A stretch of DNA of 64,000 nucleotides from Tomocerus qinae. Its lineage: Eukaryota > Arthropoda > Collembola > Entomobryomorpha > Tomoceridae. Shown here in pieces: positions 10,025 to 52,700 of the stretch. Position 1 is the stretch's first letter. Every line of letters begins with the position of its first letter. The notes beneath the pieces are model-generated. The model was given only the letters and a program-made list of their open reading frames with translations. It was not told the origin of the DNA and searched no databases. The stretch is taken from contig CM034550.1 in NCBI GenBank assembly GCA_020055645.1, positions 15,575,001 through 15,639,000 of the forward strand, read 5' to 3'. The position numbers and the translations under genes are program-made.

Positions 10025-10686
10025 TTTTAGTTCAGTCAATTACTTCTTAACGCCCAAAACGTATTATCAGCAGATTCGTTGTTCGTTCTGATTTCATAAA
10101 TCTTATTTAGTAGAAAAAGTTGACTTTCCCTTGTGAATGGTATTGGTAAAGATGCCGGTCAAATTCTGGAATGAGCAGAACTTCTACTTCTTCCTAGTTG
10201 TTCAACCTTCTATCATCTGGAATCTCCTCATGAATCGCTGACGTGTCGGCTATCAAACTACGGCTGGCAATTTCCGCAATTGGCACTTAGCTTCTAGCTA
10301 GCTACAATTCAGCATACTATTTTGTTTCCAATTTTCACCTTTACAATATTTGTTATCCAGGCAAACTGATGGCTTCTCTAAACTGAAAATCAGCTGCACA
10401 AAATGTGATGAGCCATCACAGCCAAATATTGAATGGACATTTTAGAAACCAAGATAGATTTTCATAAAACAAAATTTCTAAAATTGTACCCTTTTTGTCC
10501 GGAGTCGCTAGATTTGATTTCTGTGTGTGGTGAACAAAAACTGATGAAAAGTAAACATCGCTAAAACTCTTTACAAGTGGTTGAATCTGCCGGCTTTGTA
10601 AGCCATGAAAAGTGATTGATCCAGGATAAAGCGCGCGCAGTTCAAACGCATTAACTTTCACCACAAATTAAAAATCTTGTCCACGT
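10025..10686. promoter_or_regulatory. Candidate shared upstream region of divergent CHERP and NSF
   Basis: CHERP (minus) starts at 10024. The GC-richer leader of NSF (plus) begins somewhere after about 10690, marked by GAGAGA-type runs at 10692-10712. No TATA box is evident on either side. A divergent promoter is inferred from layout only. Confidence 0.4.
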
Positions 10687-11688
10687 ATGTATGAGAGAAC
10701 GAGAGAGCTGAGAGCTCACAAGCTTATTCATTGTCATTGTCAGCCCAGCCTTCGAACCGAAGAAGTGAAAGTCTTGTACTCCTCTCTCTTGTTCAGATAC
10801 TCCCTTCATAGGGTTTTATCGATCTGGTTATCAACAGAAGTCACCAGAGTCCAGTCATCCAGTCTATCGAGGCTTGAGCCCCGAGTATTCGCGAATCAAA
10901 CCGGAAACGCGTGTGTCCAAGTTTGCAGGGGTAGTAAGGAGAGTTTTTGGGCTGAGAATTTCAGTCCCCGTCAGACTACTACAAAATAAAGTTGCTGATT
11001 CTGGAAAGCAGTGCAGTAAGCAAAAGGATCCGTTGAATGTTCGTTTATGTTCGCCGATTCTCGACAAGGCAATTCGGGAAGAGCCTACTGCTTGGTGCAG
11101 AAACCGGAGTTCTGGGATAGAAAAATTTGGTTTGTGAACGAAGAACTGTTTCAGTGTTCAGTATTCTGGTGCTGACAGTGAAGCAGAGAGTTTGCTTCAG
11201 CCGATCCTCTGACCGTGCCGGAACGTTTGGAAGTTTCGGAAGGCAACCAGCCAGCGCGGATGGCAGAAGCAGAATATTGGCATCAAGAGAAACTATAGCT
11301 ATACCTGGAGACTGCTACTACTAGGACTTTGGACTAGTCCTCGACAAGTAAAACGTGCTACGTCAAGAAAGTGTTCTACAGTATTCGGCTGAATCGACTC
11401 GGCTTTGGTCCTTGACTTTCTCGTTCGGATGGTTGTTGGTCCTCTCTGGTTGGGTTCTGTTCGTAGTACGCCGTTCGCTCAACGATTCGGTATTTCAGCA
11501 TTTCCAAAACAGAGTGAACTGTAATAATAATATCCAAAAGAAGCTCTTCTAACGTTAACGTAACCGTAACATCGACATCGTTCCTTTGTCCGTGTCCTGA
11601 TATTTTCTCCTCTCTGAAAAATACCCGCATCGAATCGGGTCGGATATTCCCTTCGGTTTCTCTACAGGAGCAGTAGAAAGAAAGCAAC
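10687..11688 (+). promoter_or_regulatory. Probable long 5' leader of NSF with upstream ORFs
   Basis: About 1 kb directly upstream of the NSF start codon is visibly more GC-rich than the surrounding introns and holds several short open frames (from 10687, 11127 and 11355), none with a recognised motif. TCAGT-like initiator sequences occur near 11147-11160. The transcription start could lie at either end, so the leader length is uncertain. Confidence 0.45.
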
Positions 11689-14600: not shown

Positions 14601-17600
14601 CGTTTAACATTTGTTTTTTGTAGGTACTACGTTACTACGATAGCGATTAGGAGATAGTAAGTTAACAGATGAGTAATGTGTAACACTTTATAACGATGAT
14701 AATGTAATACTAATGCTAAATATCACAGATTTTTTTGCAACTGTAACAGTGACTTGTCAACGTAACGTAAATGGAGTCCACTCTGTACAGGAGCCACGCA
14801 GGCAGACACAGAGTGATAAGATAAAGCAATAAATAGAAGTAGTTACATGGATGTCTCTTATCGCAATCAGGACTCCCAGTTTGTTATAATAACATTGGTA
14901 ATGCCTATTTTGTCAAAAGATACATAGTACATATATACAAGTCTACTATGTACTTTGTTATTTTTATAGTGTTAGTGTTTGGTACAGCAAGTATTATGCT
15001 ATACATTTAAGTGTGTTGTACTACCTTCATTAAATTTTTATACCTACAGCACAAGGAACTAGGAAATGCTACCCATACTAAATAGTAAAGTGTGCTACTC
15101 CGGAGATAGGTGCTTTAAAAAGGAGTAAAGGAAACATTCTGATGGATGACACGCTTTCGGAATACAAATAAATTTAGTTCATGTTCATATTATGTACATA
15201 AGGAATACTCTTTGACGTAGACTTGAGACTTAAAACATCTTTGAGATTGAGATGGAGTTGTCTAAAAAATCTTTTTGGTTGGGAATACCCAAGTGATTTT
15301 TGGCCAAATCTTAGACTCTTTGAATTATGCAAAAATATTAAATTTTCAAGAATCATCATCTTCAACTCAACCAATTTTCGCCTTGCGCCATTTTCACATA
15401 AGTTACGGGTTTTCTTAATATTTTATCTTTATTTTACAGCTTCTTGAGGCGAACCAGGTAAGCCAATGGCCAATGACAAGTTAACGTTAAAGTACTTTCT
15501 GTACATCTAATATTTTCAAATTAAGTATTTGTACTTCCTTCCTCAATTACTATAACTAGTTTTTTGTATTGAGGTATATGCAGTATGCGCATGAGATCCC
15601 TTTACATTATGCTGTAGTGTTTGATTCATCCATACATGTGTCATGGTAAGAAAGACTTTCTGTCGTACTTGCTAATATTATTAGAGTTTACTAGGGAAAA
15701 GTGCATGACTTCTGCTGTCTTGGGATTATGAAAGTCAGATTAGAATGTTACATTTTTTGTAGTATCAACCAGACTTTTCCTATGCTCTATGATAGATCAC
15801 TCTTCTAAAAATAGAAATAATCTTTGTCTTTCAGTAAGACAAAGCATTCATTTTTAAACTACGATTCAATCTTGAAATACAATGAAGAAATATGTTAATG
15901 CAATAATGCAATTGTTATGCAAACGTACGCTCTAAAATAGCTCAGCGGGTTGGGACGGCGCCCTATTTGGTCTATCTATAGAGTGGGAGTGGTTTAACCT
16001 TGTAAACTTACTCTTTTGCAACCTAAACTTCATAAACCTTTCATACACGTGAAAGAATGACGTGGTGAAAGTCATGTCTTTCACAGGTGAAAGTTTTATA
16101 TGCATTTCAAAATGGTAAAAAGTCAAGAGAGTAGTAATAGAAAGTTGTGCAGGTATAGGTACTGGTAGTTCACCCGAATGCTTTTTCGCAACTCGTTTGA
16201 AATACCAAAGGTTAATTTGTAATGTATAATACTGAACTGTTCTGTACCGAAAACCGAGTAAAACAGAAGATTGTTTTTGTTTATTTTTGCCATACTGATA
16301 CTATAATGATATTTCTATGTTAAATTAGATATATTAGGTAATAATTAGGATTTTTGTGTTTCTTTTAAAAGTGTATGAGTGTATGTGTGAACTTAAATGT
16401 AAAATTTCGGAATGTTTTTAATCTTACAGCGACTACAAGTCGTGCGATGTCCATCAGACCAACTCTCCCTGACGAATTGTGCCGTCGTCAGCCCGGCGGA
16501 TTTCCCCGGAGGGTCCGGGTCAGTCACTTTTACATTTACATTCACATTTTTTATGCCTTTGCTTCGCACAATCTCGCTTTCTAGATTAACAAAGCATGTA
16601 TACGTAGACAAAGCATAAAACAAAAAACAGCTTTCACATCCCCTTTTCGGGTATAACGCGTGTATGTGTAGTTATACCGTCCCTTGGATGCCAAATATAA
16701 TCCTTTTAGCAGATTTAGACTCCTTATTTTGTATCACATATAGTATGTCATATTTATAGCTTAGTACCGAGTGTTCATAACCAAGATTATAATATTATAC
16801 ATACATATCTGTCTTCTTTATCAGTAAACTTGTATCACCATACGGTTGACTTCTGATAAGTTTTGTAGAAGTTAAGGAGAAAGTTATGCTGAAAATAATC
16901 TTTATGTGTGTCAAAAAAGCTTTGTTTCCCTGATATGTTTATATTCTATGTAAAAATGTTCAGGAAATGTCAGTTCTCCTTTTAATAAATAAAGCGTAAG
17001 ATTCAAATGGTGAAAGTGTGTATTGTGTATAGAGTACAGTCTGCAAAAAACGAACCTTCAGATTTGCATTACATTAAATGTGCATATTTTTTAGAAAACC
17101 AACTTAGCAATTTGGCCAACTTGACGTATGTGGTATGTGTATATTCTTAAATTAAAAGAGAAAGCGCGAGACGCGTGACATTAGGAAGAATAGGAGAAAG
17201 TAGATGCTTTTTCCTCATCAGTTTTTGCTTTTGGTAGAGATAAATACCAAGGACAGCAGCTTTGCATTAGTTAAACTTAAGGAAGCAGAAGCATAACTTG
17301 CTGGCGTGATAAAAAAAAGTTTGCAAACAAGTTCAGTTTTTTGTCGTTATCTTTACCACGATAAAAAGCACCGTATATATATTACTACTACGCGAACTTT
17401 GAATATCTCTTAGTGTATATACTGACTAACAAGTCTGGATTAGGATAATAGTGTATCTAATCCACAGTGCACGCTTACTATACACAATAAAGTGTCAAAT
17501 TTAATGTGGTCATTATATTTACTCTTACGATTACTCACAATAATTAAGACCAAGTCTTCTGCAATGAATGATAGTTAAAAATACCAAAGTATATTTTAGT

Positions 17601-20600: not shown

Positions 20601-23600
20601 ACTGTCCTTATATAACAATGTACAACTGAATATAGGAACCTTTAAAGTTTGTTATAATATAGATGAAGTTAAGTTGAGTACATTAGAATCGAAAAACTAA
20701 ACTACGTATGTGTTATATTCTCGAATTTTCGTTGTGGATTGAAAACGACAATCATTCAATCGATTATATTTGTGCCCGAGAGGCTGTCAATAGAGATATT
20801 TATTTGTAGGTTGCAGATGGGAGCCAAAATGCTGTGTTAATATTAGTTATTTACTTAATGGCTATTTTGTGTCCTATCTACCAATATGCAATACAAGAAT
20901 TGAAGTTTTGTATTGTACTAGCCCGAATGAGAATTCTGTACAATCAAAATAAAAGGCAGCAAAAGGGTTGTGTTGAGATTGAGCAATTAAATTAGTAGGC
21001 CGGTCCCAATACGGCAATTTCTGTTAGTACTAGATAGCCAAAAATATAATATTTATAGCTTGAGTGCCCAAAGAGTGTTTAGTATTTTCTATATGTGTTT
21101 AACAAATCCAAGCGCGATACAGTTTGCTTATTTGAACAACAAAAGACAAACCTTTTTGTATTATTGCAATGAGAGCGTCTGGACAAATGTACAGACACTC
21201 GTAATGGTGACAGAGATTGAAATCTCGGGGAATACTCAGTGTATACATGTACATTATAAACTATGCCTTCAGCGTATTGAGGAATAAGAACTGAAATACC
21301 CCAATGGAAATACTATCTATCTACTGTAATTGTTCTCAGAGTAGGAAGGAGCCTCCGACAAAATTTCAGTTTCTCTCGGTCTATTCTATCGGCAAATTCC
21401 CATGTTTTCAATTGCACGGAAGCACGATTGAAAGTTCTGTTTGGTAGCAGAAACTATCCAAGTTGTAGTTTTTCCATATACCTACTGCTATTATTATTGC
21501 TACCACTAGACACTAGAATTTCGTCTGACAAGTTTGGAATGTTTAATAGAAGAGGGAAAAGAAGATTGTGACTTTCCCTGTTTCATCGACTTATTTAAAT
21601 ATGCGCTTAGTCGACGAGACAGATGAGTGAATTGCAAATTGTAGCGGAAGTGAAAACTTGGGCTTATTTGATTTGAAAGCAGTTGACTTTTTATCAGTAA
21701 CTCCGTTATGCCTTTTATGTGTTCCGCTTTGGTTTTGTCGAGTGGAGACAGAACCAACTGAGAAATCAAATGGGTGCATATAAAGCTATAATGCAGCCAC
21801 TAAGATAATACTTATATGAAACTACGTACTTCAAAACTTATGTACGTAGTTTATACAATAAATTGGAGCTTGGGAATAAAAGTATAACATGTATATAAGC
21901 CATAAGTACCATTTACAGAGTATATATAATTTTATACATTTGAACGAGCAGTAATTTATTTTTTCTATTATCTGATACACAATTAAGTAGGGAGTTACAG
22001 ACTATACTTTATATACCGATAGCAAAATTAAGTTGAATAATCCAATAAAAAACTAAATGTGGGGAAATGGGCATACAGACATTATTTAGATAACCTTCGA
22101 CAATTTATTGATTTGAATTTGTAAGATTTCTTTCATTACCATTATATAGCACTTTAACTAATGTTACAAGGCTCAAACTACGATATTCAGCTGTTATGTT
22201 GGTTTATATCAATGTATATTGGTATATATTTTATAGAAAGACTCCTAGAACGAATTTGAAAGCGTTGAAAACTTTCACCGTGCTTTCTACTGTAACTGTA
22301 TTGTGATGAAACAAAGTTTGCATTTGTGTGGCTTACAGTGGATTAGCTAGCTTTGCATGGCTTTGCGCTTTATTGTGTTGCTGGTAAAGTCTTACAAAGA
22401 AATGAAATCCGTCCTAATTAGTTTTGTGCAATTTAATCTAAACAGGGATCCTCGGAACAAGCAGCATATTCGAATCAGTCCTGCCGGGGTGATGGATCGT
22501 TGGTTTGTCTTCACTATCAAACAGAGTCCCGAGGTGAAGTCGGGAACTATTGGATTGAGTCTTACTCAAAGAAAATTTGCAACAGCTTCCATCGGACAGG
22601 ATATGGATGTTTACCCATATGATTTCGATAAAGGAACGGCCTGTTGTTCGTCACTGTTGCTGGAAGTGGATTTCCTTCAGAAAAAGCAGTAAGTTTTCTC
22701 TCCCCTATTCAAAAACACAAGCAATGGCTTATATTGTAGGTTGTTCTTCGTGTAACTTCTTTTTTAGTGTAATTACTTCTATAGATGTAGGGTGTGGGAG
22801 GGAACTATAAATAAAGAGCAGGTTAGCCGTCAGTATTGTATAACAAAATAGCAAGTACAGTACATGTATAAAGTAGGAGCAATAAATCAGTTCGTTAGTA
22901 GTAGGAGTTGGTAGATGTAAGGTAAGTGTTGGGAAAGAGATAAGTTAAAGTTGGATGTCGGACCTAGGTATTTTGTTTTCGTCCGCATGACTTAGACAAA
23001 GACTAACGATTTTAGAGTTTGTTTTTCTTATTTTCCAAGACTGAAAATGAGCAAAGCATAGGAGAAAGTGGCAATAAATGCTTTCATTAACTTGACTCTG
23101 ACTTTGCGTCCCTGTTATCTGGTTCTGACGTTTGACCATTTTATTGAAGTCAATAAACGGGAAGCTGGTAGATGAGTCAACACTTTCTCCCACTCGGACT
23201 ATTATTCTTTTAGTACTGTTTGCTTTACTTGGAAATGCCTCTTCTTGTGCACCCATCGCAGACTCAACCAACTAGTTCAACTTGATTTCCTTTTTCAGGG
23301 TAGTATCGTTTTATTTAGCCAGGTTCTACTTTCTACTTACTGTAAGTAGATTCCGTCTGTTAGAACAAAATCAAGCAGCCGTGTAGTAGAAACGAAACAG
23401 TAGATAAAGCTATGTAACTCAATGTATATCAAATGGAAGCAAGTCAAAATCAAAGTAAACAAATCTTTATTTTTGTTAGGCTACCGAAGCTTGAGTTGAG
23501 TAGAATCGATTGTGGTAATAGCAGTGTGGTAAAATTTATTGATCTAACTCTATTGATATTGAGTATATCTCTTCTTGGTCGTTATCAGCCCAGATACAGA

Positions 23601-26600: not shown

Positions 26601-29600
26601 ACATACATACTCCCGGAAATTATAATATTGCATAGATTATACTCTGCACTGGAATTTTTTTTGGTCTAGGACAGTGAAGTTGACAAATTAATGTAAGATG
26701 ACCTTAATTTGCATTTTGGTTTTTTGCAGGTCGACTAATGAGCCGTATGACACAGATCTGATGGCAAAAGAATTCGTGTCACAGTTTGCTGGACAGGCTT
26801 TCCATGCTGGAATGCTTCTTGCATTCAGTTTTCATGATAAAAAGTTACTTTCTTTAACCGTGAAGGAACTGGAAGGTGAGTTCACTTTATTCTGAATTAC
26901 CGTAATGTGTCATTGTAATTATGATGTTAAGAATAAGAATGGCTAAGTTATGGTTATAGTCTGTGTGCCCATTTAGCTGAGTAGTGCAGTAGTGTGTACC
27001 GTGTGCCGTTATCTATGTAATTTAACTATGAAATATGCAATATTCTCTTTTGCGGTATATGGTATGCGAAATGGAAACTTAGAAAGAATATGATTGATAA
27101 TATTTATGATTATGAGGACTGTGACTCCTCGGCATTTCGATGATAACATCTTACGTACCGCCGCTGTAGGTGGGGAATTGAAAATACATACATGCAATAG
27201 GACATGACATTTGAACATTTATAATTTACGTTTTTTCGAATGGAAAGAGTTGTGCTGTCACAAAGGAAAGATAACGGGTGAAATGAAGCTATTGAAACAA
27301 GTCACATCGGATAAAACGGGTCTGCATTCGCATTCACATGTACATGTAGTGTGAAGTGAAATTGTAGGATTTCGTGGAGGAAAGAGTAGAGAACGATTTT
27401 TAGCCTTCTTTTCACGTTAAGGCTGTCGTGTGTAAAATATTGCTTGTTGAATATTTTATGAATTTGAAAAGGCTAGTAATATCGATGAAAGTCCGGGCAG
27501 ATCCACTTAAAGCTACGTATAGAAATATGTATAAGTACCAATACATGTAAGTGGAAGCAAAGACTTTTCTTCCTTACCCAATACTTAACAGTACCTACGT
27601 GGAATAGGAAAATGTGTGGAGTGGAATGTGGAAAGAGTGATTCTTACACATTTGGACGTCTCGGTGTGCACGTTGTAAATGTCGCATGTTGAAAATTAAA
27701 TGAAACGTGCGTTCTGCGTCAGTAAGAATAGTAATACTGCTATTCTAGATACTGGCAGTAGGTAGTTATTTGTGATTTCCTAACTGACTAGTAGGAAAAG
27801 CCTATTCATGTCTAGTCCTACTTGTATTACTTGTAGTAATGCTAAGTAGTTATCCAATGTTCAAGTAGGTACGTACATGTTTAAAGGGCGTACTAAAGAA
27901 TAGAATATGTCGTGTCTGGGCAAGCAATTCCAACTACTTCGCTCGATTAACCTGAACGTGAAGAGTAGGATCTGTAAATATTTCATTGGATCATTTGAAT
28001 ATTTGAAAATCCCGTTTTGTTAGTTAGAATTCGTAGTACTAGTCGAAGAGTCCATATGCCTATTTAGGTAAACAACCATTTAGTGTCTAACTAACCTTCT
28101 TACTCAACTGCTTTTTAATAGCTACTATAGTTAGCTGCTATTTCGTTGAGGATGCCAATAATAAAGTTGTAATGATGAAAACAGTAAACATGACAGACCA
28201 GCAGAGATAATATTTGCAATAATAATAATATTTGTATGAACGAGGTTAAAGGCTGTTTTAATAGCTATGTATTTGTTTCAGGTCAGTACCGCGGAAGTAT
28301 ATAGTAAAAAGGTTTTAAGATAAATAAATATATTTTCAACTTTCACCAAAAATTTGTTTGCATTGATTATTATTCAGGTGAAAGTACTTGTGAAAAATAT
28401 GTGGAGAAGTACCTTGTTACATTAAGTAACATGACATTAATATATTCACTATATATACTGAGTAATTTTGAATAAATAGCAAAGAATTACATTATAATTA
28501 ATTAGTTTGTCGTCGGAACTAAGATTTTGTCAGTAATGTTTTTTTTGCATTTACTACCTGTAGTATAACCTTTCTCGAAAAAATTCCTGTCATTTTCAAT
28601 AAATAAATTTCCTGCAACATACATACTGTATGAATACTGGAGAAAGGAGCCAATAAGATTTCATTGGAAGAAAGACTGCATAGACAGCCATTCATTTTTG
28701 AAGATGAGAAAGTAAAAGCACTGAAAGCGTTATACTTGTTCACGAACGACTGAACGACTCGTTAGAATTTTCACAATCAGTGAAGCGCAGCATTGTAGCT
28801 GGAATGTCCTAGTGGTATGAACTACTTTACCGGCTTGGTACTCATACTATGGCATTTAAGAATGGTACCGAATCTAGGTAGGTTTTTGGTTGTAGTGATA
28901 TTATTATACGTTCTATCTGCGTTTATGCACCCAAAGTATCTAATGGCCATTATGTAGGATATAATATAATGGTGTCTCGGGGCATTGTGCTTCAGGTATT
29001 CACAACCTACTTGCACGTGTAGTATTTAATGGCCTTATACATTACTACTACGAATACCAACAAACAACACATATCATCACTATATATCAATGCAGAAGTA
29101 TAGTATAATCATTCTTGGTTATTTTGCACAGTACCATTAATATCTGTAATAGGCACGTTAAGTTTATATGAGGTATAGTCATAGCTTTAGTGTTATAAAT
29201 TCTGTCATCTGTAAAATAAATGATGTTATAGGCACATGAGTGTCACTCAAAAGTATATGCATCAGTTATGACTATACTACTGTCAAATCTTCAATTTAGG
29301 TCACTAAATAGTTTAAAATATGCTATAGGTATGTATGGCATATGAAATGGTACTATCAATATTTTAGAAAATAATTATATTTCTGCTACCTATTTACAGA
29401 CTTGACAATTGCTATTGTCGTTTTGGGATCCCCTCGATCACACCGACCATTCTATTAGGAATTGATAGGGTAAAATACAATTTTGGGAACAATGTTCTTG
29501 TCATACTTGACTAGACATGTCTTTGTCAAGTCGAAAATAGTATGAGCCTGTAACAAAATAGGCACCAACTAGTTAGGTGGTTAGATATTGGTATTTGGGT

Positions 29601-32600
29601 ATGATACCTTACTAAGTATTTTACTTACATTTGTGTGGCTATATATAATGTGAGGAAATGGAAGGAATCAAGAAAGGAATGGAACGTATGTTATTGCAAA
29701 TTTAGCTTAGTTTTGTTGGTTTGGTTTCTAGGATGGTGATATGTGCAAAGATTTTTTTCATGGATGTAGTTTAAAAGAATGGGGACTGTGTGTAATAAAA
29801 ATATGTGTATAGGTTTCATTCGTACATGGAGCAAACGTATTTTATTTCCCATTAGGCTACTGAAGCAATTGCGCTAGTTTGTACGGTGGTGAATTTGGTG
29901 AGCGTATGTATGCTTTCTTGCATTTCCATTGGTTGGCTGGATGAAATGCTCCCATCCGTTTTGAGTTCACCAACCTAAATATAAAATTCAAAACCGGAGC
30001 TAGAAATGGGAAGTTGTTTTATTGAATGTAGGCATACTTTGTTGTGAGTACATTGGTTCAGGATTTTTTCTTGCATCCGTACTATCTATAGTGCTATTTG
30101 TTAAAATGAAAAATTTAAAGTTATTTTGTATTTCCGTGCATTTTGACTAGAATTGGTACCGGTGCAATAGGACATAATATACTTTGGAACTGGAAGGAAG
30201 AATAGATGATGAGGAGAATTGGAATTACTGCTTTACATTTACATTATTACACAGACCTTGTTTTTTTCTACTGCTAATTTTTGGCATGGATATGACTATG
30301 ATATGCTTCGGTGGCTAGCTAGCATTACAAGACATTTTAATAGCAAATCATGAATTCCTTCTGAAACGAAAGTTATAAAAGTGGGAACTTTATAGTTTGG
30401 ATTTTTACGTTTGGTTAAGGTTAAGAAAAAGAAGTTTTGCTAGAGACAGGATTTATTTATGAAGGTTGTGTTCTCTGGTGCTCTACATCCGTTTAAAAAT
30501 GCGAAAGAACATGTTTTTTTTCTTTTAGGAAAGTAAGATAGATGAAGAAAGAATGTTCCTCCGTTGTTTTGCGTTACTTGATGAGTAAGGAAATGGAGTA
30601 CTTAATTGACACTTGTACTATAGTTAATAGTAGTAGTCTACGTGACTTGGAAAGTATCTAGAAGTGTTCGAATGCAAAAGTTTGTCATGTTCTAGTAATC
30701 GGAAACGGGAATTATGTCTATCCCTCAAGTCAAGAAAGTCTGTAATCCTTTGTGAAGACAACTTGACGTTTAAATGTACGCTATCAATTACCCTGCATGC
30801 ATATTCAGAGGGTTAAGGAGGTTTACATCAAAGCGTCAACTCATTACGTTTACATCTTTTCATCTTGTGATGGTAATTAATTTTCGGACTGATAGCGATG
30901 GGCCACAGGGCAGCCTGGTTTGCACATAATATTTCCAGGGCCATAGTAGTTTACATTTACTTACTTTGAACAGGAAACTGGCAATACGTGTATTTTAAGG
31001 GAACGCTGCAATGCAGCATCTAAAACAAAATGCTAAGCATGCAATGTCTGCTCTGCACTGCACAACAAAATGTACTCGAGCAAGTATAATCGCAGAGGAG
31101 ATTTTTGCAAGAAATGAAAACGTAGACAAACTTTTAACGTTTGACACCGTCTTTCTAGCTTTTATCGGACTTTATGGCTTCTTCCTTTCCTATATACTCT
31201 TTACTTCTGTGGAAATCGAATTCAATTTCGTTGGGTGTGGTAATGGAAGCATCACAACTCATAAATAAATCAAAGGAATATGGAATAGACTGACTGGTAC
31301 TGATTGTAATAGTACGTCAGATGAAGTAAAGAAACGCCTATCTTACCATTATTAAAAGCGGATTTTTTTGTTGTACTACCAAAGATGAAGAAATAATAAT
31401 AGCTTTTTTTCCTAATAGTTAATTTTGATCGTAATAAGAATTATAGCATGTAGAACAGTCTGGAAAAAAGAAGGTTTTATTTGTTTCTACTTTCATCTTT
31501 GACCTTTCTTTGAAGTGACAACTCTCAAAGTAGAATTTTACCCCAGAAAAGTTTCTAAAATGTACTAGCACTGAGTAAATTTCATTAGTTCAAACTTCAA
31601 AGTAAATCTTGTGATAATCTGTTTATGAAATCCCATTTTCTATCGAATATGGCTATTTAGGGATTCGGGATTGGAAAACGAAGGTTGCAAAATATTTTTT
31701 GATCTGCAATTCGTAGCATGCTTTGAATTGTCTAGTTGCGGTTCCCAACTTGAGAAATAGAAGGAATTGTTTCTGTTATTTTAGTATACTCCACTGAATC
31801 AGAAGTTCCATTTATTTTCTATTATTGCGTTTCTGGTCCGTTACAGATCGGACTGATTTATGTTCACAGAGCGTATCCTAATTGCATGTATGTATTATGT
31901 ATTTGTTTTATAAATATAGTAGCAGTGATAAAAGAACTATAATAAGTTCTTTTATCAACTATAGAAAAGGGCAAAGCTAGTTGTTAAGACGGAGTTTGAG
32001 GGAATATTGGATTAATTTAATTGAAATGTAGATGAATGAGGTTGTTATATTTATTGCAGTAACCCTGAATGCTTGTTAAATTGTATAATTGCAGTTGCGG
32101 ACATGAATCCATTAAAAGTAGGCGGTGAAGTGCGAATCTCAAAGGCAGAGTTGGGTATGTTACTGCCCGATACGAAAATCGTTTTTGAAAAGGGGGAGCA
32201 GTCTGGAGTGAATCTAACAGGGAAGTCGAAAGGGAAGATGACCCGGCAATCTATCATCAATCCCACATGGGATTTCCAGAAAATGGGGATTGGTGGTTTG
32301 GACAAAGAATTCAATGCAATTTTCCGTCGTGCATTCGCTTCTCGCGTTTTCCCTCCGGAGATTGTAGAACAACTAGGCTGCAAACACGTTAAAGGAATTT
32401 TGTTATATGGGCCACCCGGCACCGGGAAGACACTAATGGCTCGACAAATCGGGAAAATGCTTTGCTCGCGGGAGCCAAAGATCGTAAACGGACCAGAGAT
32501 TTTGGATAAGTACGTTGGTCAATCAGAAGCAAACATTCGTCTTCTGTTTGCAGAGGCAGAAGAAGAAGAAAAGAGACTCGGGCCGAACTCTGGCTTGCAC

Positions 32601-33863
32601 ATAATAATTTTCGACGAAATCGATGCGATATGTAAGCAGAGAGGCAGTGTGGGTGGTGGCACAGGTGTGCATGACACTGTCGTCAATCAACTGCTCTCGA
32701 AAATCGACGGTGTGGAGCAATTAAATAATATTCTTGTTATTGGGATGACAAATCGACGTGACATGATTGACGAGGCTTTGCTTCGACCGGGGCGTCTTGA
32801 GGTTCAAATGGAAATCAGTTTACCAAATGAAAACGGCCGTAAGGAAATTCTGAAGATTCACACTTGTCTCATGAAGCAATATGGTAAGTTGGCAGATGAC
32901 GTTTCTATCGAGGAGCTGGCAGCTTTGAGTAAAAATTTCAGCGGTGCGGAGCTGGAAGGATTGGTTCGGGCGGCTCAGTCAACCGCAATGAACAGACTCA
33001 TCAAAGCAGCATCAAAAGTTGAAGTAGATTCGATGGCAATGGAGAAATTACGAATAACTCGCTCGGATTTCCTCAACGCTCTCGAGAATGATATCAAACC
33101 GGCCTTCGGAACGAGTCAAGAGATATTGCAAATGATGCTGACTCGAGGAGTAATCAATTGGGGCTCTCCTGTTTCACATGTGTTAGAAGACGGAATGCTG
33201 CTCATTCAACAAGCCCGAAGTCCTGAAAGTTCAGGCCTAGTCAGTGTACTTCTGGAAGGAGCACCAAACTCTGGGAAGACAGCATTGGCAGCTCAATTGG
33301 CTAAGAACTCCGACTTTCCTTTTATCAAAGTGTGCAGTCCCGAAGATATGGTAGGGTTCTCTGAGTCTTCCAAATGCCTCCAGATACGCAAAGTATTCGA
33401 TGATGCGTACAAATCATCGGTGAGTTGCATCTTGGTGGATAATATCGAGCGTTTGTTAGATTATGGTCCTATTGGGCCTCGCTATTCAAATCTGACTCTG
33501 CAAGCTCTTCTCGTGCTCTTGAAAAAACAACCGCCTAAAGGAAGAAAACTCCTCATTCTGTGTACATCGTCGAGAAAACAAGTTCTCGAAGAGATGGAGA
33601 TGATTTCGGCGTTTACAGCCGTTCTCCACGTGCCCAATCTGAGCAGACCTGAACATCTCTTAGCAGTTCTTGAAGAATCGGATGTCTTCACCAAACAGGA
33701 AGTGGCCAGTATTGCCCGCAATATTGATGGACGGAAGATCTTCATTGGCATCAAGAAACTATTAGCACTTATTGATTTGTTGAGACAGACAGAAGGAGAT
33801 TATCGTGTGGCCAAGTTCTTATCCAAACTGGAGGAGGACGACGCCATCGAATTACGCGGTTAG
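11689..33863 (+). CDS. NSF: N-ethylmaleimide-sensitive factor, AAA+ ATPase
   Basis: Coding exons are 11689-11700, 16430-16518, 22446-22688, 26730-26875 and 32095-33863. They join in phase to give 752 aa (human NSF is 744). NSF is a cytosolic hexamer that uses ATP with SNAP adaptors to disassemble SNARE complexes after membrane fusion. The N domain (1 to about 200) starts [20 protein letters not shown] and includes [17 protein letters not shown]1 has Walker A GPPGTGKT at 269-276, Walker B IIIFDEID ending at 320, and the [11 protein letters not shown] stretch. D2 has a Walker A-type APNSGKT near 553-559 and LVDNIERLL, in which Asn603 sits where AAA+ proteins usually have Glu (human NSF has Asp). 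This fits a nucleotide-binding, weakly hydrolysing D2. The start codon follows a 5' leader and is supported by the conserved MAGR. The stop is TAG at 33861-33863, where the family normally ends. Confidence 0.95.
11701..16429 (+). other. NSF intron 1 (4.7 kb)
   Basis: Donor GTTTGT, acceptor TTAATCTTACAG. The sequence is AT-rich. It contains a possible tRNA-derived SINE fragment at 15932-16001. A 144-codon open frame at 13508-13942 lacks motifs and does not start with ATG. Nothing else is supported. Confidence 0.85.
15932..16001 (+). mobile_element. Possible tRNA-derived SINE head fragment
   Basis: TAGCTCAGCGGG at 15938-15949 matches the RNA polymerase III box A pattern found in tRNA genes and tRNA-derived SINEs. 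A weak box B-like GGTTTAACC follows at 15991-15999. I cannot fold a complete tRNA cloverleaf and see no poly-A tail or target duplication, so this is tentative. Confidence 0.3.
16519..22445 (+). other. NSF intron 2 (5.9 kb)
   Basis: Donor GTCAGT; the acceptor is the AG of AAACAG just before GGATCC. It contains a diverged direct repeat (AACATAAGACAACTGTA at 18593 and 18702, each followed by AAACCTTTCCAAA) and an 11-bp inverted pair AAACTACGTAC/GTACGTAGTTT at 21819-21852. No gene is seen. Confidence 0.85.
18593..18750. repeat. Local direct duplication, about 109-bp spacing
   Basis: AACATAAGACAACTGTA begins at 18593 and again at 18702. Both copies continue with AAACCTTTCCAAA and later GGATTTGG- or GGGATTTG-like sequence. 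It looks like an old tandem duplication of about 109 bp. Confidence 0.6.
24456..24560 (+). repeat. Long imperfect hairpin (MITE or hairpin-RNA candidate)
   Basis: The arm beginning TTAAGGAGGGGTTG at 24456 pairs with the arm ending CAACCCCTCCTTAA at 24560. The stem is about 37 bp with two single-base bulges, one G-U wobble (in plus-strand RNA) and one mismatch, closed by a loop of about 30 nt. TTAA at both ends could be a piggyBac- or Kolobok-type target duplication, or TA a mariner-type one; the palindrome hides which. The size and bulge pattern would also suit a pre-miRNA on the NSF sense strand. Confidence 0.7.
26199..26471. repeat. 53-bp tandem repeat, about five copies
   Basis: AAATAACATAATTTTTTC-like units begin at 26251, 26304, 26357, 26410 and 26460. 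They are separated by a pyrimidine-rich TCTCCTCCTCCCCGCCCC segment that decays in the later copies. The spacing is 53, 53, 53 and 50. Confidence 0.88.
26490..26580. repeat. 31-bp tandem repeat, three copies
   Basis: GTGTCAACATAGGG-type units occur at about 26498, 26530 and 26561, with TTTACT and TTCTAGAAG between them. They follow the 53-bp array directly and belong to the same insertion. Confidence 0.75.
26876..32094 (+). other. NSF intron 4 (5.2 kb)
   Basis: Donor GTGAGT, acceptor TATAATTGCAG at 32094. An AG 35 bp upstream (TTTATTGCAG, 32059) would bring a stop codon in frame, so the second acceptor is chosen. A perfect 13-bp stem, TGATAAAAGAACT (31926-31938) with AGTTCTTTTATCA (31945-31957), lies near the 3' end. 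An 85-codon open frame at 31011 is unrecognised. Confidence 0.85.
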
Positions 33864-34247
33864 GATTACTGTGGGCCCCCAACCCCCTCGCCTAGCACTC
33901 CACCGAGACAACGAACTGGCTTCACGAATTGGTCTTGTTGGATGAGGCTGGGCGGTGCGGTTTGCGGCTGCCTCCACGATTGCTGGCCGCTAGTAGGATT
34001 GTGCGTTGGCGGAGGGGTTGGAGGGCTCTTTGGCATGGCTGTCGGCGTTGCCGTTGGTCTTACTCTTGGAATCATCGTGGGTCTCATTGTTGGACTCACT
34101 TTTGGAATTATATTCGGATTTATAGCAGGAGAAGTAACTAACGGCAAAACTGATAGTAGTCAGCCGAAAAAGTCCAAGCAAGAGAAAGAGGATGAGGAAT
34201 GGCTAGCTTGGATCATGGCTGCTCAGCAGACCCAAGCGGCTCCCTAA
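33864..34247 (+). CDS. In-frame 127-codon extension after the NSF stop: glycine zipper
   Basis: The NSF frame continues without interruption from GAT at 33864 to TAA at 34245-34247. The first 26 codons are Pro/Ser/Thr-rich (DYCGPPTPSPSTPPRQRTG). Then comes a hydrophobic stretch at 33987-34130 with glycine nearly every fourth residue (GLTLGIIVGLIVGLTFGIIF), long enough for two membrane passes, and finally a Lys/Glu-rich tail ending near EEWLAWIMAAQQTQAAP. The DNA is GC-richer than the 3' flank and looks coding. It could be translated by readthrough of the TAG (context GGT TAG GAT), by alternative splicing, or as a second cistron from ATG 33942, whose -3 base is T, a weak start context. I do not recognise a homologue. 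It is also possible that it is untranslated. Confidence 0.5.
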   Translation, partial: DYCGPPTPSPSTPPRQRTGFTNWSCWMRLGGAVCGCLHDCWPLVGLCVGGGVGGLFGMAVGVAVGLTLGIIVGLIVGLTFGIIFGFIAGEVTNGKTDSSQPKKSKQEKEDEEWLAWIMAAQQTQAAP

Positions 34248-34418
34248 AATAAGAACAATAATTATTTATTCAGTAATTAACTCCCAACAAATCATATTAA
34301 CCATTACAATGTTTGCGTGGAAAGTGAACTGATTATCTGTGTAATGTTTTTATGACATACTAATTACCAAACAACGCCTTGAAACTTAAAAGTATACTTA
34401 TTAAGACTCATTCAAAAC

Positions 34419-34424
34419 ATTAAA
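34419..34424 (+). terminator. Possible NSF polyadenylation signal (ATTAAA)
   Basis: ATTAAA lies about 170 nt after the TAA that closes the extended frame and is followed by a GT-rich TTGATTGCGTTGTAAT stretch. The first canonical AATAAA on this strand is far away at 35447. Confidence 0.4.
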
Positions 34425-37400
34425 TATTATTATGAATAGGTTGATTGCGTTGTAATAATTGTAAATGCGCGCATTCCCCTCATTTTCCAGTGGAAACAAT
34501 ATTTTCTTGCAATATTTTTCAAACAGTAATAAGTTGTATGCCTACTGTATGTCTTACCCTAAACTCCCGAATGACAACAGTCACATTCTGGAGAATTCCC
34601 AAGTGAATGCATTCTCCCCTCCGGAGAAATTCAATTCAATACCACTTGCCATAGACTTTATTCACTTGGGATTTGGGTGACCAGTAGTCCCTGGAATTAA
34701 GCGCGCTGATTATTGAATTGTATGTTCCTGAATTCACAGAAAACAGGCAGGTTTACATTGTGATATTTTATAATTGTAATGAATATAAGGTCTCCAAAGA
34801 CCACAAATCAGTATTCTAATATAATTTAAACTTGATTTTCCTTGCATTTGCATTGTTGTTGTTGTCTTGTGTGTGTAGTGTGATTCCAAGCAAATGAGTT
34901 ATGCGTAAGTGTACCATACATACCAGAGGAATACTGCATTTTAGGTAGGTAAGGTCAATCAAGTATTACAAAGTTAATTTTAATTTGATAATTCGCATCA
35001 CAAGAAATCGAATCAACTCCAGGAGAGATTGTAATGTAAGTATGTCATGTCGGCGTTGACGTTGGCATGTTCCTGACAACTGGTGACATTCCTCATGTAC
35101 TTTCCAGCTGGTATAAATGAGTATAAATCTGAATCAGAGTGTGCATGACTTCATGTGTAGCTCTGTCTCGTATTCTATGTCGTTCTAACATAGGTAATAG
35201 TAATTAGATTAGTCTCCTTGTTGATTAAATTAGAAAAATATGTCGTAGTTGTGTGTCCTATTGTGTCTCGTCTTGTGTAAATGTAAATACAACTAGTTAA
35301 ACCTACCTACCATTAAAATAATTATTAATTATATACGTGTAAGCCTATAAGTACTTGATTCTACTCTCGGGGTACTGTTCAATGGCACATACGTACGTGT
35401 GTGGGAAACCCTTATGAAATTGTAAAGAAAACAGACTTTCAACAGAAATAAATCATTAAACCACAGAATTTCGCCGAGTTAAGTAGTATTACAGAAAGGT
35501 ACACCTCGACCAATTCACTCACACGTCATAGAAAGTGTGCTTGTGCGTGAATTGACGTCAGGCTACCCGCTATCCATATAACACAACAGCCTTTTGATGC
35601 CATGCCAAACTTAATGGTAATAGTCTTAGAGCTATAGAGATATGCGACCTTCTACATACGGAGATAGTCTTTTATGGTATAGATAATGAAGATAGGCAAT
35701 CATCAGCTGTAATTAATAGGGCTTAGGTATATCAATTCGGATATTATGCACCATTTCCCTATTTCAGTCTTATATTACATAATAAATTATGCACTTTCTG
35801 TTGAAACTGCCATGAAATTAACACCATCAAGAAATGGATAGAGAGCCCGTCATTACGGGAATGAATATATTACACTATAATCTGTTTAGAAAAGCATTTA
35901 CTCGTTTTATCTATCACATGATACAAAATATCATGTCTATGTATTCATAACTGGAGAATATCCAGGTATTTACTTATGGACATAGGTACAGATAATTTAC
36001 AGATTTAAGCTGGATAAGAGATCTGATTCTACTAGGATACTACCAGCAATCACTAGTAATTTAATTAACTTGTCTCCTGCTCTGTCTACGTCTTTAATAA
36101 TTAAAGTATGCATTGGTGTAGCCTAAGTCTTTTAACTGAAAGAGTCTGTACTTATACATACCTACCATGAAAAATGGATCAGATCTCAATGTTGATCGTA
36201 AACTAGAAGCGGAATAATCGCAAAAGCCATCGATACTAATTTGTCTGTACTAGGAATGATCGCACTATAATGTCGAGAGTTTGCAATTAGTTTTAATTAG
36301 TAGACAGTACTCTATTTTAAATAGGTTAATCACACTCTCACGGATTTAAAAGGACGTAAATCGCTATAGGTTGTTATATGTGGTTCCCTATTGAGATATC
36401 TAAATGTTTAAAACAGCCAGCAGTATCGGTATAAATTAGTAGACAAGAGAAAGCAAGAGAAAGCTGTCTGTGTACAGGGTATCAGAAATTGAACGTACTT
36501 TTTTGGGGTTTAATTTCTAGTTGAATATTTAAATTTACGTCATTTACTGGGGAAAGTCTATAAGAGATCATGAATTTTAATGTAACAGCCATGTAAAGAT
36601 GAATAATTTTTGGCCCACTATAAGTATAATGAAAATTTCGAAATCGATAAATATGTAGATGATTTTGGTAATGATTTCAGGAGGGTTTCCATGCTGTGAT
36701 CATGACCGATGTGATCATGACCGAAGCAGCGTTAAGACTAAGACTACCTGGTTCTGTTTGTGAATGCCCTGTACAAGAGTAGCTATATAAAACACAACGC
36801 ATCAAAGTAATTGCTTCCGCTAATAATTACCGCCATATCTATTCAAGTGGACCTCTGCCATTACATTGTAGTCAGATAGCTTTCTCTGTGTCTCACAGGA
36901 AAGCTAATTGGACGGTTAAATTACAGATACAATTAAATTAATGTTTCTTTCAACTACTTGCAATTATCTATAGGCAGTTTCAAAATGTAATCCATTGCAT
37001 GGCCTTTGAACAGCTGTATTGTTTAACTCTATATTATAGCTTACCGATCGACTAATTTGAATAAAAGTTTAGTATGCTCATTTCACAGTAGGACTTTCAC
37101 TATGCTTTCTCCGTTGAAAGCAAAGTGAATGTTCTCTTTGGGTTCACATTACGCTTATTATAGGTCTGGAAATCTTTTTTGGCTTCAAGGCTTCTTCTAT
37201 ATAGTCTAATTTATAAAATAAAAAGCTGTGGCATAATTTCATAGGTATATTGTTTTGCCCACTGTATTCTGTCACTTTCAGCTTTCTCCCTACTACAACG
37301 TATAATTAATATAAATGTTATTATTGTGTCTTGTCTGTGTGTTAGTGTCTATAGTATCTGTCTATCTATTTCTCTGTAAATGAAGGATAGATGAGTTGAA

Positions 37401-39324
37401 TGCATGACTTGGGGGAATAGAACGAAACGAAGGAAATGAATTTACCTACCTATATGCAATAATTCAAAAAACATACCTTACATACAATTACAACATATAA
37501 CTACACAAATGTTTGTGTAGTTTATAGCGCAAATAGTAGTTAAATAGTCTGGTAACAAAATGAATATTACCATAAGTAGTATGTAATAGAAAAGCAAACT
37601 AATTATAGATACACTAATAATATAGTTCACTATACACATTAACTAAAATCGAATTATAGTGAAGTTCTCGTATGTACGACAGTGCATACTTAGGGTAAGT
37701 GTAAATAAAGATGGGGATGATCGGAGAAATGATGAAAGATTGACGGTGCTACATTGTGTACATAAATCAGGTAGTTAGTAATTAAATCAATTAAAATTAC
37801 AATACTGCCCACTGCATTAGATGCTACAAACACCTTCTACTAAAATTATTATCTCAAACATAACCATTTTGTCGTATCAAATCTTCATTCTCATTCCTAA
37901 TTTTTTTAACTCACAAAAATCACGCTTTTTTCTTGTAATTTTTATTTATTTTTAGGCTTATTTCAATTTTTTGAGCTTTAATTTAGTAGGTGTGTCCGAC
38001 AGGTATTATTGAAATGAATTTGTGATTAACACATACCTACTGTGCATTGAATCGTAAACATTAAATATTCATGTTAATCGTTATGGTATGTTAATGTAAA
38101 TAATTTAACTAACTACTAAACATTATCGCATTGTACATAAATACTTGTAAATATATTATTATGAGGTATACTACAGGTATATGTCATGTCATATCTATGA
38201 TTCGACATGGTCTTGTCCTATAGAATGCACTGCCTAAAAATCTAAAATTATTGATAATCTACTACCATGTAATATATCCCCGCGTCACTTTAGTGTAGTA
38301 GCCCCACATAAATGTTAGTAATAAAAGTGTACATATTGCCATTATATGATATATAGTAGAATATGGGTTGATGTTACAAATAATGCATATTATTATTGTT
38401 GATGATATAATATAGTTGTTAGTAGTTAGAATGCAATAGTATAATATACCTAATAGGCACATATTATTAGTAAAGTATAAACAGTTAAGACATGATTTAT
38501 TATGTATGTAATGTATCTAAGTATAATCTACTCAATTGTCTCTATTAAGGAAAATAAATCACGGAAGATAAGCAGATTTGAGTGAAGAATTGAATAAAAT
38601 AATGGCAAGAAAATTGAACTTTCACTAATTGGACTTTTGCTGTCAACTGTCTCATTTCCATCCTAAATCATTACAAAAAGTGTTCCATTTAGATAAGTAG
38701 TAATTCGTTTTTATATAAAAGTCAGATAGCATTGAGAATACAAATAGACATATTTCTTCCGCTACAGTTGCTTTGATAAAGAAATTGCCAGTCATCTTTA
38801 AGAGGTTAGAGCGTGAGATAAATAGCCGGAATGATACAAGTTAGATGCTGGCAGAAGAAAGTATTATATTCCGATCAGTAGGTTAAGTAGTTAACCTGGT
38901 ATCTCTTCCATCTGTATCCACAGCGAAAGAGTATTTTCCCCGAGGTTCTGCAACTTCTCCAATCCAGCGTAATGTAAGTATCCACTCAACTGATAAGTGA
39001 GGGGAATGCTCCCATCCTTCATATAAATTATAACAAGTTTTTGTGCTAATGTCTTCCCTTTTGCAGTCTAGATACAGAACATTATAGTTAAGCTGAGTTT
39101 ACCATTTCCTACTTTCACTCTTAGTGAAAGTTTCCTTGAATTCTCTAAAAGCTCTTTTTGATTAGGAGGAGTAAAGTAAAATTCCATCTCTTCAACATTA
39201 CACTGGCATATTTCACTGTATTGTCTTGTTTGTTTTTAGTTGTAATCCACGAGCTCCTTAAAACTCCCTTAACTCGGACTGGGAAACGGAGGAAAACAAA
39301 AATTGGGCTAATAACGCTATCATA

Positions 39325-39645
39325 ATGCAAATTGTAAATTATCAAGGTATGTACAAGAACTGGGGCTATGTACAACACACGCGACAGCTACTACTGCAGA
39401 AATACGAGTCCCAGTTCCAACCTCAACTTCAGCGTGTCTGGCCTGGCAATGCTCAATTTGGCAGCGGAGTGAAAGTGGAAGAAAGGAAAATTGTTAAGGT
39501 ATACTTTTATTACTTTCTATCATGGTACAAATACAAGAGTGAACTGAATAAACTCGTGCAAGGATTTCCAAGTCAAATTGCTAAGTGGATAGGACAAGAA
39601 AACCAGACCAGACGGCTAAAGTTCATTTCTCTACAGTTCACTTGA
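39325..39645 (+). CDS. Hypothetical ORF, possibly an unrecognised exon
   Basis: An ATG-started frame of 106 codons, in a local rise of GC content, includes a Gln-rich segment (HTRQLLLQKYESQFQPQLQR). An AAG|GTATAC site that could act as a splice donor lies near 39498. I recognise no family and see no partner exon, so it may be chance. Confidence 0.15.
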   Translation: MQIVNYQGMYKNWGYVQHTRQLLLQKYESQFQPQLQRVWPGNAQFGSGVKVEERKIVKVYFYYFLSWYKYKSELNKLVQGFPSQIAKWIGQENQTRRLKFISLQFT

Positions 39646-49790: not shown

Positions 49791-52700
49791 TTACACTGAT
49801 CTGCATTGCTGTGGAATTTCAATAGCAGCATTGGACAAATAGCAAGCCTTGGAATATCCTACTGCAGCCGTACAAACAGATCGTTGGGCATCATATCCCT
49901 TTTCGGTACTTAATCTCTCACAAATATGTTTGTACTGTTTGGTATCCACAACTCCGTAGCAAGGCCTAAATATAAACGTTAAAAATTGAAATTCATGTTC
50001 ATAAGTTTATGTAGACTAAAAATCTGTTTCAAAGTTTTACCTGAGTGACGAATTACGACCTTCGAACGCATCAGAGCATTTTGACTTTACAGAAGAAGAG
50101 ACAGAGACAGGGTGTGCTGGGATTGGATTCTCACGGCATTGATTATCCAGCTTCCATTCTTTGGCGAATTTCTCAACATCTCCTTCAATCTAATTATTCC
50201 CAATGAATACATTAAATGATGCTGGATAGGAATTTCAATTTTATAATTGTCAATAAGAATGCAAACATACCTCTCCATTTGGAGTTCTGAAGTCGTCGAA
50301 TTGCTCGTTGTTGTAAGTTCCGAGAAGACCTGCTACCTTTCCTTGGTAATATCCATTAATAGACACAGCACAGACATCAGCTTTCCTGGAACATCCGAGA
50401 ATAACGGCACCATTTTCTGCAACAATCACGGTGTAATCGGATTTCCTGGCCACTACCAACTGTCCGACTACTTGCTCATCATTGATTTCAGTGGGTCTTT
50501 GGTTGATGACGACCTATTTAAAATTTTAATCAAGTGAGCATTATACATTATAAGCCTTATGTTACAAAAACCATTGCTAGATCATTAGATCAGATAAAAA
50601 ATGCTTACAGTCTGGTCAGGTTTAATTGCTACAGTATCTTCGCCATACTTAAGAATAACAGATTTCTGGACTTCGGAACCAGTGTTGTCATAATCCAAAA
50701 CAACGCTGAAGTTTCCATCGATGAAATCAGAGGCGAGCAAATATTGGCAGTTTCCTTCGAAGTGGTAGAATTTTCCATCGAATGTTCTGTAGTATTGGGA
50801 TCCAACAACGATACCGTATGCTAGAGTATATAAAAAGAATTTAGTATTTTAGCAAGATTTTCTTTTCATTCCCTCAATAAAATTGTCACAATGATTATGA
50901 GATATATTATTACCGCGGAAGGGTGGAATGATGGCATCAAGAGAAGCTCCAGCTTTGAGTTTGTTGTAAGATTCAGTTAATCCATACTTCATAGATGGTA
51001 CTTTCATCAGACTGAAAGTAGGTGTACGGACCTTACTCCATTCAATGTCAAACAATTTGACAACATCAGTAAGATTGTCAATGGATTTAGGCAAGGGAAT
51101 CTGAAATGCAAATATCTACGATTAAGTATTTTATTCCTTGTGATATACATGGTACGTTTTGAAAACGGATGCATTACCTGAGCGAGGAAAAGACCGTTAG
51201 CCAAGTCGACAGTAAAGATTTCATTTGCGACCTTCTTAACAGCAGCAACCAGCTTGTTGTAAATTTCTTTCTGGGCAGCAGCATCGTCAACAGGGCTTTG
51301 TTTAGCTTTCTTTTCAACGTACTCAGCGATGGTTGCAACGAGTTCTTGAATTTCTTCTCCAGGTAAAATGGTCAAGATGTACTTTCTGAATTCATCAGCT
51401 TGTTCCTTAGCATCCTTGATGATTTCTGCTAGGAAGTTCTTGTAACGAACAATGAGTTCTTTGACGAGATCCTTCACAGTTGGATTTTCAAGAATATCGT
51501 TGGTCGATTGCTTAACAACGGTCCATACTTGAGTCAGTTTTTCCAAAGCGACGACCAAAGTCTTTTGAACAACTTTACCGATTTCAATTGAAGACTGAGC
51601 CAACCAGGCCAATTTTTCAGCTAGAGCAGGACTATTTTCAGAAATGCGGTCGATAGTTTCCCATACTACAGTCATTACAACTTTGACAGCTTCGCCCAAA
51701 GAGTCCAATGAAGAGTCTACGGCTTCTTTAAAGGCTTCGACTGTTCCTGGAAGTCTTTCGAGGATCTGTGCCCAAACGGCTGGTAAAGTTTCTGCTTGAG
51801 CAATCAGGGCATCGAGAACTTGAACAGCAGATTTTTTCAGATTTGCTGCGATTTCCTTAAGAATGTCGATATGTTCACTGGTGAACTCGTGGACAAAGTC
51901 ATAATAATTGATCAACTGTTGGGTATCTTCATCAGCTTGAAGCTCAGTCTTGAGATCAGTCATTTGTTTCTTGTAAGAATCGCAAACAGCCTTCAAATTA
52001 GGAGTAGCAGTTTTCAAACTGGAAATTAAATGTTTCACTTCGTCAATGGTTTCTTGTCCAGAGGTGCGGGAGATTTCCTTCAATTTCTGAGTTGTTCTCT
52101 CAAGACGGGCTTGAGCCTTATTCTGTAAATATAAAATTCATATTTATAATCATCTACGTAAAAACGTTCTAAAGTATCAGATTAATAGTTTTCAAAAAAG
52201 CATAATTACCACAACGTTTCTGATGTTCTGCAAGTCCCAGTCGCTCTTAACGAAAAGGACACGACTAGTGTTCAAAGCAACATTCAAATCAGCCAATACA
52301 TTATTTTTCTCAGCCTCATGATCGTAAACTCCAACAACGAAATGTTTATCATTCTTGAATCCTAAGTATGCTTCGTAGAATTGTCCAGGAGCACTTGAGG
52401 AAGTGTATGTTTTCCATTCAACATGATGGGGGGACACAGTGGAGACCTTAGTTTGGATGATGCGGGTATCTTCCATGCCTGGAAGCAGAATTTCTTCACG
52501 GATTTCATAACCGGTGGCGTGTTTCTCCCATTGAGCAGAAAGAGCCACGATTTTGCTTTCTGGACCATTAATGTGGATATGAACACGGTTTCTGGACAAA
52601 GCTGCGTCAATCTTGGAAGATTTGATCTGTCTATTTCTGTTTTCATAGGTGACTTCAGAACGGTAAGAGATTTCATTGTCAGATCGGCTAATTTCTCCCT

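Follow-up and report, generated by a model that had tools for sequence, protein, structure and literature searches.

The NSF gene at this locus raises the question of what lies behind its stop codon: downstream of the TAG at 33861-33863 the reading frame of NSF continues, and the continuation could be an extension of NSF, a separate protein or a product of chance. Here, the window is the whole 64,000-nucleotide stretch of Tomocerus qinae DNA that was analysed, and the tail is the open stretch behind the TAG, with its codons numbered from 1. The NSF frame is open from 33864 to 34244, or 127 codons, and closes with a TAA at 34245-34247; a preliminary description of this DNA had the frame open to 34247, and its coordinates are right. 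A second ORF in the NSF frame directly behind the stop is the arrangement found in readthrough genes. Whichever frame is read, the first ATG after the TAG is codon 27 (33942), 78 bases on, and it lies in the NSF frame. The 26 open codons ahead of it (33864-33941, forward strand), as described before, lack an in-frame ATG and translate into a Pro-rich sequence; they also contain a C-rich tract and an AG at 33894-33895. The +1 frame behind the NSF stop (33865-33945) is likewise open, to a TGA at 33943, and outscores the NSF frame over codons 1-26, probably by chance.

Four forward-strand exons of NSF join in frame, with phases 2, 2 and 1. The first (16430-16518, start of the N domain, donor phase 2, with an alternative donor at 16512 that also fits) we take to be NSF from its likeness to an NSF sequence pattern; the second (22446-22688, N domain, donor phase 2) matches the NSF N domain at 2e-14 in phmmer, and the third (26730-26875, remainder of the N domain, donor phase 1) shows 54% identity to NSF at 4e-12 in a tblastn search with a piece of NSF as query. 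The coding part of the last exon (32095-33863) encodes the D1 and D2 ATPase domains, has Pfam matches to AAA and NSF_ATPase_lid, and matches vesicle-fusing ATPase at 7e-259 (phmmer), the alignment extending to residue 742 in a chain of 747. Because the match reaches this far, the TAG is taken as the usual end of NSF, as previously claimed. The first ORF thus has the N, D1 and D2 parts of NSF, the D2 lid and the full C-terminus, and the gene itself looks intact and appears to end where NSF should. The start-codon exon, expected upstream of 16430, was not located in the window. A processed NSF copy is ruled out by the introns with matching phases. The D1 and D2 domains both lie in one intronless 1.77-kb exon (32095-33863), whereas the N domain is split across several exons with multi-kilobase introns. 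NSF is generally regarded as a soluble recycling ATPase, and the best solved NSF chain has no domain like the tail, since the chain ends within five residues of the match.

By length, the open frame is moderately striking, a modest signal in itself, and the strong part of the signal is its content. For one given frame, simulations (20,000 each) put the odds of 127 open codons at 0.0043 with the dinucleotides of the tail, 0.0028 with those of the NSF exon, 0.0001 under the make-up of the 3′ flank and 0.0002 under that of the whole window; among 3,000 dinucleotide shuffles the proportion was 0.003. Stop-to-stop ORFs of at least 127 codons number 23 of 7,726 in the window, several of them within recognised genes. 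The preliminary description had drawn an argument from the 26 ATG-less codons, namely that a chance ORF would not need them to be open, and this argument is weak: a stretch of that length is open by chance with a probability of about 0.3 at tail or NSF-exon composition, 0.16 at the mean composition of the window and 0.15 at that of the 3′ flank. One hypothesis is a chance open frame within a G+C-rich 3′ UTR. Openness alone has p of about 0.003-0.004 at the tail's own composition, three further stop-to-stop ORFs of at least 60 codons overlap the same G+C-rich patch (33866-34159 and 33990-34202 on the reverse strand, 33896-34141 on the forward strand), and a weak 24-base tandem repeat at 34052-34098 could have seeded the glycine pattern described below. 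That glycine register, the codon score and the preference for a single frame all contradict chance, which we consider quite improbable. Base composition changes where the ORF stops, with G+C falling from 0.505 (34141-34247) to 0.268 (34248-34400).

The most distinctive part of the tail is a glycine zipper at codons 45-89 (33996-34130, forward strand), an uncharged stretch at about whose start the coding signal begins. Codons 45, 49, 53 and so on up to 89 all encode Gly, giving 12 residues in an unbroken i+4 register; the second-longest such run in the six frames of the 64-kb window has 4. The earlier claim of a GxxxG-repeated hydrophobic stretch with varied codons is borne out by this register and by the mixture of Gly codons (7 GGA, 3 GGC, 2 GGT). 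GxxxG occurs 13 times in the tail against 1.25 expected, and a run of 47 residues is free of D, E, K, R, H, N, Q and P against 9.2 expected; neither value was reached in 3,000 shuffles. A comparison of the two 24-base units (codons 65-72 and 77-84) shows 7 differing bases; 5 fall at third positions, as expected had the protein sequence been maintained, which argues against a chance repeat. Behind the zipper, a K- and E-rich segment (34131-34244, forward strand) corresponds to the charged tail noted before and has a predicted helix at residues 105-120. In a single-sequence AlphaFold2 model, this second helix follows a long one at residues 22-93, for which the block means of pLDDT are 94 (residues 61-70), 97 (71-80) and 86 (81-90), the whole model having a mean pLDDT of 66.5 and a pTM of 0.33. 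The product of the tail would, on this prediction, be a glycine-zipper membrane helix. The 47-residue uncharged run is too long for one straight crossing, and the helix is therefore likely to be tilted, to form a hairpin, or to pack as an oligomer on its Gly face, while the K/E-rich tail should stay in the cytosol.

Codon usage provides a separate view of where the tail resembles protein. Eight long ORFs from the window (2,594 codons, NSF exon included) served to train the codon model, four of them Pfam-supported; five of the eight were searched, and 51007-52137 was without a Pfam match. For the synonymous-only score of the whole tail and for some of the segment scores, those of codons 27-57 among them, seven of the eight ORFs were used. 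The whole-codon score takes in amino-acid make-up and is drawn from one genome only, and stop codons were dropped from the non-coding controls of 44 and 83 codons. Shuffle p values are not specific, as p ≤ 0.05 was obtained in 51/150 non-coding 44-codon windows and in 35/200 non-coding open 26-codon windows, and weight is therefore placed on calibrated z. For codons 45-127 the whole-codon z is 5.16, a value that none of 250 non-coding windows reaches (highest 4.46), whereas coding controls average 4.99, with 17/28 at or below 5.16. Over the same codons the six frames score 5.6 (NSF frame), 2.7, 0.9, 0.7, 0.5 and -1.0, and in sliding windows whose starts run from codon 39 to codon 78 no other forward frame exceeds z 1.6. 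When the whole tail is scored by synonymous choice only, another forward frame equals the NSF frame (-7.7 against -8.2). The coding-like score is already present at codons 45-57, to which the synonymous p of 0.005 for codons 27-57 is due (whole-codon p 0.142), and extends into codons 94-127 (p 0.001-0.002, or 0.034 against dinucleotide shuffles). We conclude that codons 45-127 are very probably coding; with z 5.16 and the 12-Gly register, the earlier premise of a coding rather than a chance tail very probably holds.

The point where coding begins is what separates the possible mechanisms. The sliding whole-codon score is high up to the NSF stop, drops to z -0.65, -0.67 and 0.31 in windows from codons 0, 13 and 26, and is back at 2.75 in the window from codon 39. 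Codons 1-44 as a whole have a z of -0.84, as low as which are 0/54 coding and 7/250 non-coding windows, so that the stretch is unusual even for non-coding DNA; over these codons the NSF frame is the lowest-scoring of the six. Taken in parts, codons 1-26 have a whole-codon p of 0.67-0.69, whereas none of 96 coding 26-codon windows is so poor, including eight Pro-rich ones (p up to 0.14), and 17/200 non-coding open windows of this length have p ≥ 0.68. Codons 27-44 have p 0.80, and 0/140 coding 18-codon windows reach 0.7. Synonymous choice is less discriminating: codons 1-26 give p 0.10-0.13, and the p of 0.296 for codons 1-44 does not separate the cases, as 23/105 coding windows also have p ≥ 0.1. 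By the whole-codon score codons 1-44 look non-coding, the Cys-rich part having no matched control: it contains more Cys than any of the control windows, among which the highest count is 3 per 44 codons.

These results bear on readthrough, in which the TAG would sometimes be decoded and a minor isoform made of NSF plus 128 residues (the TAG and 127 codons) would carry the membrane helix; an NSF hexamer would then have up to six anchors. The tail continues the NSF frame without a break from the stop onwards, and codons 1-18, one of nine segments examined, are coding-like when synonymous choice is scored by itself (p 0.01). Readthrough is also abundant in insects and longer proteins are likelier to gain it, according to the text of PMC5100048 and PMC4528330. 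The first of these places TAG second among the stops favoured for readthrough in flies and mosquitoes, and the annotated extensions described in the second are mostly 8-300 residues long, a range that includes 127. The missing signal in codons 1-44 (z -0.84) argues against a tail translated from the stop onwards, although non-conserved readthrough regions found by ribosome profiling are described in PMC4528330 as intermediate between coding sequence and 3′ UTR, and such a character could explain the gap. The stop itself is TAG followed by G, whereas the text of PMC5100048 gives TGA as preferred and a following C as a sign of readthrough; this context is favoured, not obligatory. Further points against readthrough are the in-frame ATG at codon 27, which lets the domain be made without NSF, an RNA structure behind the stop that is unremarkable (z -1.47, with 15/200 shuffles as good), and the absence of CAGCAGCA from 33864-34600. 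Weighing these, we regard readthrough as possible yet doubtful. The preliminary description had proposed an NSF isoform with a membrane anchor; the zipper helix of that proposal is supported, and its attachment to NSF is not established in view of codons 1-44, the TAG-G context and the codon 27 ATG.

NSF would also be extended if A-to-I editing turned the TAG into TGG (Trp). An amber/W switch by A-to-I editing is known from hepatitis delta virus, the TAG is editable in principle, and NSF acts in neurons. Of the four stretches that were folded, one has the A at 33862 paired with a probability of 1.0 and the other three with only 0.06-0.13, and an edited product would again run through codons 1-44, which are not coding-like by whole-codon score. 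Editing is extremely improbable on this evidence.

Splicing is another possible route, joining an upstream exon to an acceptor in the tail and bypassing both the NSF ATPase domains and the TAG. There are two candidate 3′ splice sites on the forward strand: an AG at 33894-33895 with a C-rich tract (12/15 pyrimidines) and a TAG at the site, and a weak site of tandem AGs at 33992-33993 and 33995-33996 (9/15 pyrimidines). The exons ending at 16518 and 22688 (phase 2) are in phase with the former, and the exon ending at 26875 (phase 1) with the latter, a junction that would place the N domain of NSF on a membrane anchor. The codon signal starts at codon 45, just where the tandem-AG site would open an exon, and a non-coding stretch ahead of a predicted 3′ splice site is treated as a sign of a splice variant in the text of PMC5100048. 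Against this, one in three phase comparisons should match anyway, the tandem-AG site is poor in pyrimidines, and the gene's remaining acceptors are rich in A+T. Of the donors in 33300-33900, the three with at least 6/9 matches are all of phase 0 and match none of the five acceptors listed; a GT at 33815, picked by eye, has a phase that suits AG 33894-33895, but only 5/9 donor matches. An alternative last exon is accordingly an unlikely source of the tail.

The reading towards which we lean, narrowly and tentatively, is that the tail encodes a small membrane protein in its own right, produced separately from the NSF polypeptide; an independent product and readthrough are close in probability. 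The proposed ORF occupies 33942-34247 on the forward strand, with 101 codons from an ATG in weak context plus the TAA. It would lie on the NSF mRNA, and this mRNA probably holds it because no AATAAA or ATTAAA occurs before 34419: there is neither hexamer between the NSF stop and the tail ORF, the first ATTAAA behind the NSF stop is at 34419-34424 (forward strand), and an AATAAG stands at 34248, just past the ORF end. The ribosome would start at codon 27, the only ATG between the NSF stop and the zipper, in one of two ways. By the first, the ORF would be a second cistron on the NSF mRNA, reached by resumed scanning or internal entry; by the second, it would have its own mRNA overlapping that of NSF. 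A dicistronic mRNA had already been put forward as an alternative, and with the in-frame ATG and no poly(A) hexamer in between it is kept as one route of the favoured reading. The product would have 101 residues, with a Cys-rich N-terminus, the 47-residue uncharged glycine-zipper helix, which may pack on itself or on partners in the membrane, and a charged tail in the cytosol. If co-expressed with NSF, it might have a role in membrane traffic.

Several observations count against such an independent ORF. The codon signal does not begin at its ATG (codons 27-44, p 0.80), and the ORF shares the NSF frame, open up to the stop, a coincidence expected by chance about one time in ten (1/3 × about 0.3). 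The start context at 33942 is poor, with T at -3 and A at +4; the ATG at codon 58 (34035), inside the zipper register, has a better context, and is not the sole start because the register begins at codon 45. Reinitiation behind a long ORF is also unfavourable: the text of PMC4705651 predicts, from a single viral mRNA, that the limit is 55 codons. In favour of an independent ORF, the text of PMC4528330 counts 159 dicistronic pairs in D. melanogaster; polycistronic transcripts there carry 350 genes, and readthrough genes number 328, so that the dicistronic and readthrough kinds appear about equally common in the fly. Most of the dicistronic pairs described there do not fit scanning, and internal entry may be common.

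Comparison with known systems shows what is familiar and what is not. According to the text of PMC4528330, readthrough and dicistronic genes are known kinds in insects. Like the Drosophila dicistronic pairs treated there, the locus places a second same-strand ORF after one that is complete; unlike them, it is known from DNA alone, with a poor start context and a second product without a known family. Compared with insect readthrough genes as the texts of PMC5100048 and PMC4528330 present them, it shares an in-frame second ORF at the stop and a length in the usual range, and differs in its TAG-G context, in having no whole-codon signal beside the stop, and in encoding a membrane helix where many of the longer extensions are disordered. 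The first ORF, with its N, D1 and D2 parts, resembles NSF or vesicle-fusing ATPase. C19orf12, a transmembrane glycine-zipper protein, also has a Gly-spaced hydrophobic stretch, whereas the tail has an unbroken 12-Gly register, and no shared sequence is shown. Neither glycine-zipper nor C19orf12 families occur among the Pfam matches of the tail at E up to 1, and its best matches in Pfam and NCBIfam (E 0.076 and 0.011) are all below curated cut-offs, placing it in no known family there. A PDB search gave 7 matches, the best at E 0.79 and not meaningful, and phages and plasmids gave none at E 0.1. Pattern matches were confirmed in 0 of 18 cases for the tail against viral contigs, 0 of 10 for the NSF exon against viral contigs and 0 of 42 for the NSF exon against genome contigs. 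From M27 onwards, the tail had 340 pattern matches in genome contigs, of which one was confirmed; this archaeal sequence (L001; 30 residues at 50% identity), of which 300 of 4,087 bases were inspected, was rejected as a relative and judged to be convergent membrane sequence. Missing relatives say little about orphan status, because the collections cover prokaryotes, viruses and plasmids, not animal genomes.

Literature searches that paired NSF or vesicle-fusing ATPase with readthrough found no paper, and in a further search no title concerned an NSF isoform. Neither NSF nor comt is mentioned in the main text of PMC5100048, and neither comt nor Nsf2 in that of PMC4528330. Within the literature searched, the attachment of such a domain or ORF to NSF would be new.

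If NSF were membrane-anchored, or a small membrane protein firmly tied to its expression, membrane traffic would gain a further point of control. It is possible, if somewhat short of probable, that readthrough or splicing anchors NSF, or just its SNAP-binding N domain; the zipper would then gather the ATPase, or an ATPase-less decoy, into clusters on membranes. On the plainest reading, the tail is a candidate membrane microprotein whose Gly register is long enough to serve as a clean model of helix packing, and NSF and its tail make a good test case for readthrough versus a second cistron.

Other genes and ORFs were observed in the neighbourhood. On the reverse strand, the gene at 7264-9843 has a Surp module and Pro/Gly/Phe-rich repeats, along with a sub-threshold CID match, and is presumably CHERP-like. 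Also on the reverse strand, 51007-60162 contains ORFs of a large lipid transfer protein, with Vitellogenin_N at 58945-60162 and Vit_open_b-sht at 57789-58613 and no Pfam match at 51010-52137, which we take to be apolipophorin-like. A 127-codon stop-to-stop ORF at 39262-39645 (G+C 0.41) is protein-like without a Pfam match, possibly an exon of an unrecognised gene. Finally, a patch of elevated G+C at 10672-11157 (0.46 in one ORF) has several open frames, which include both strands.
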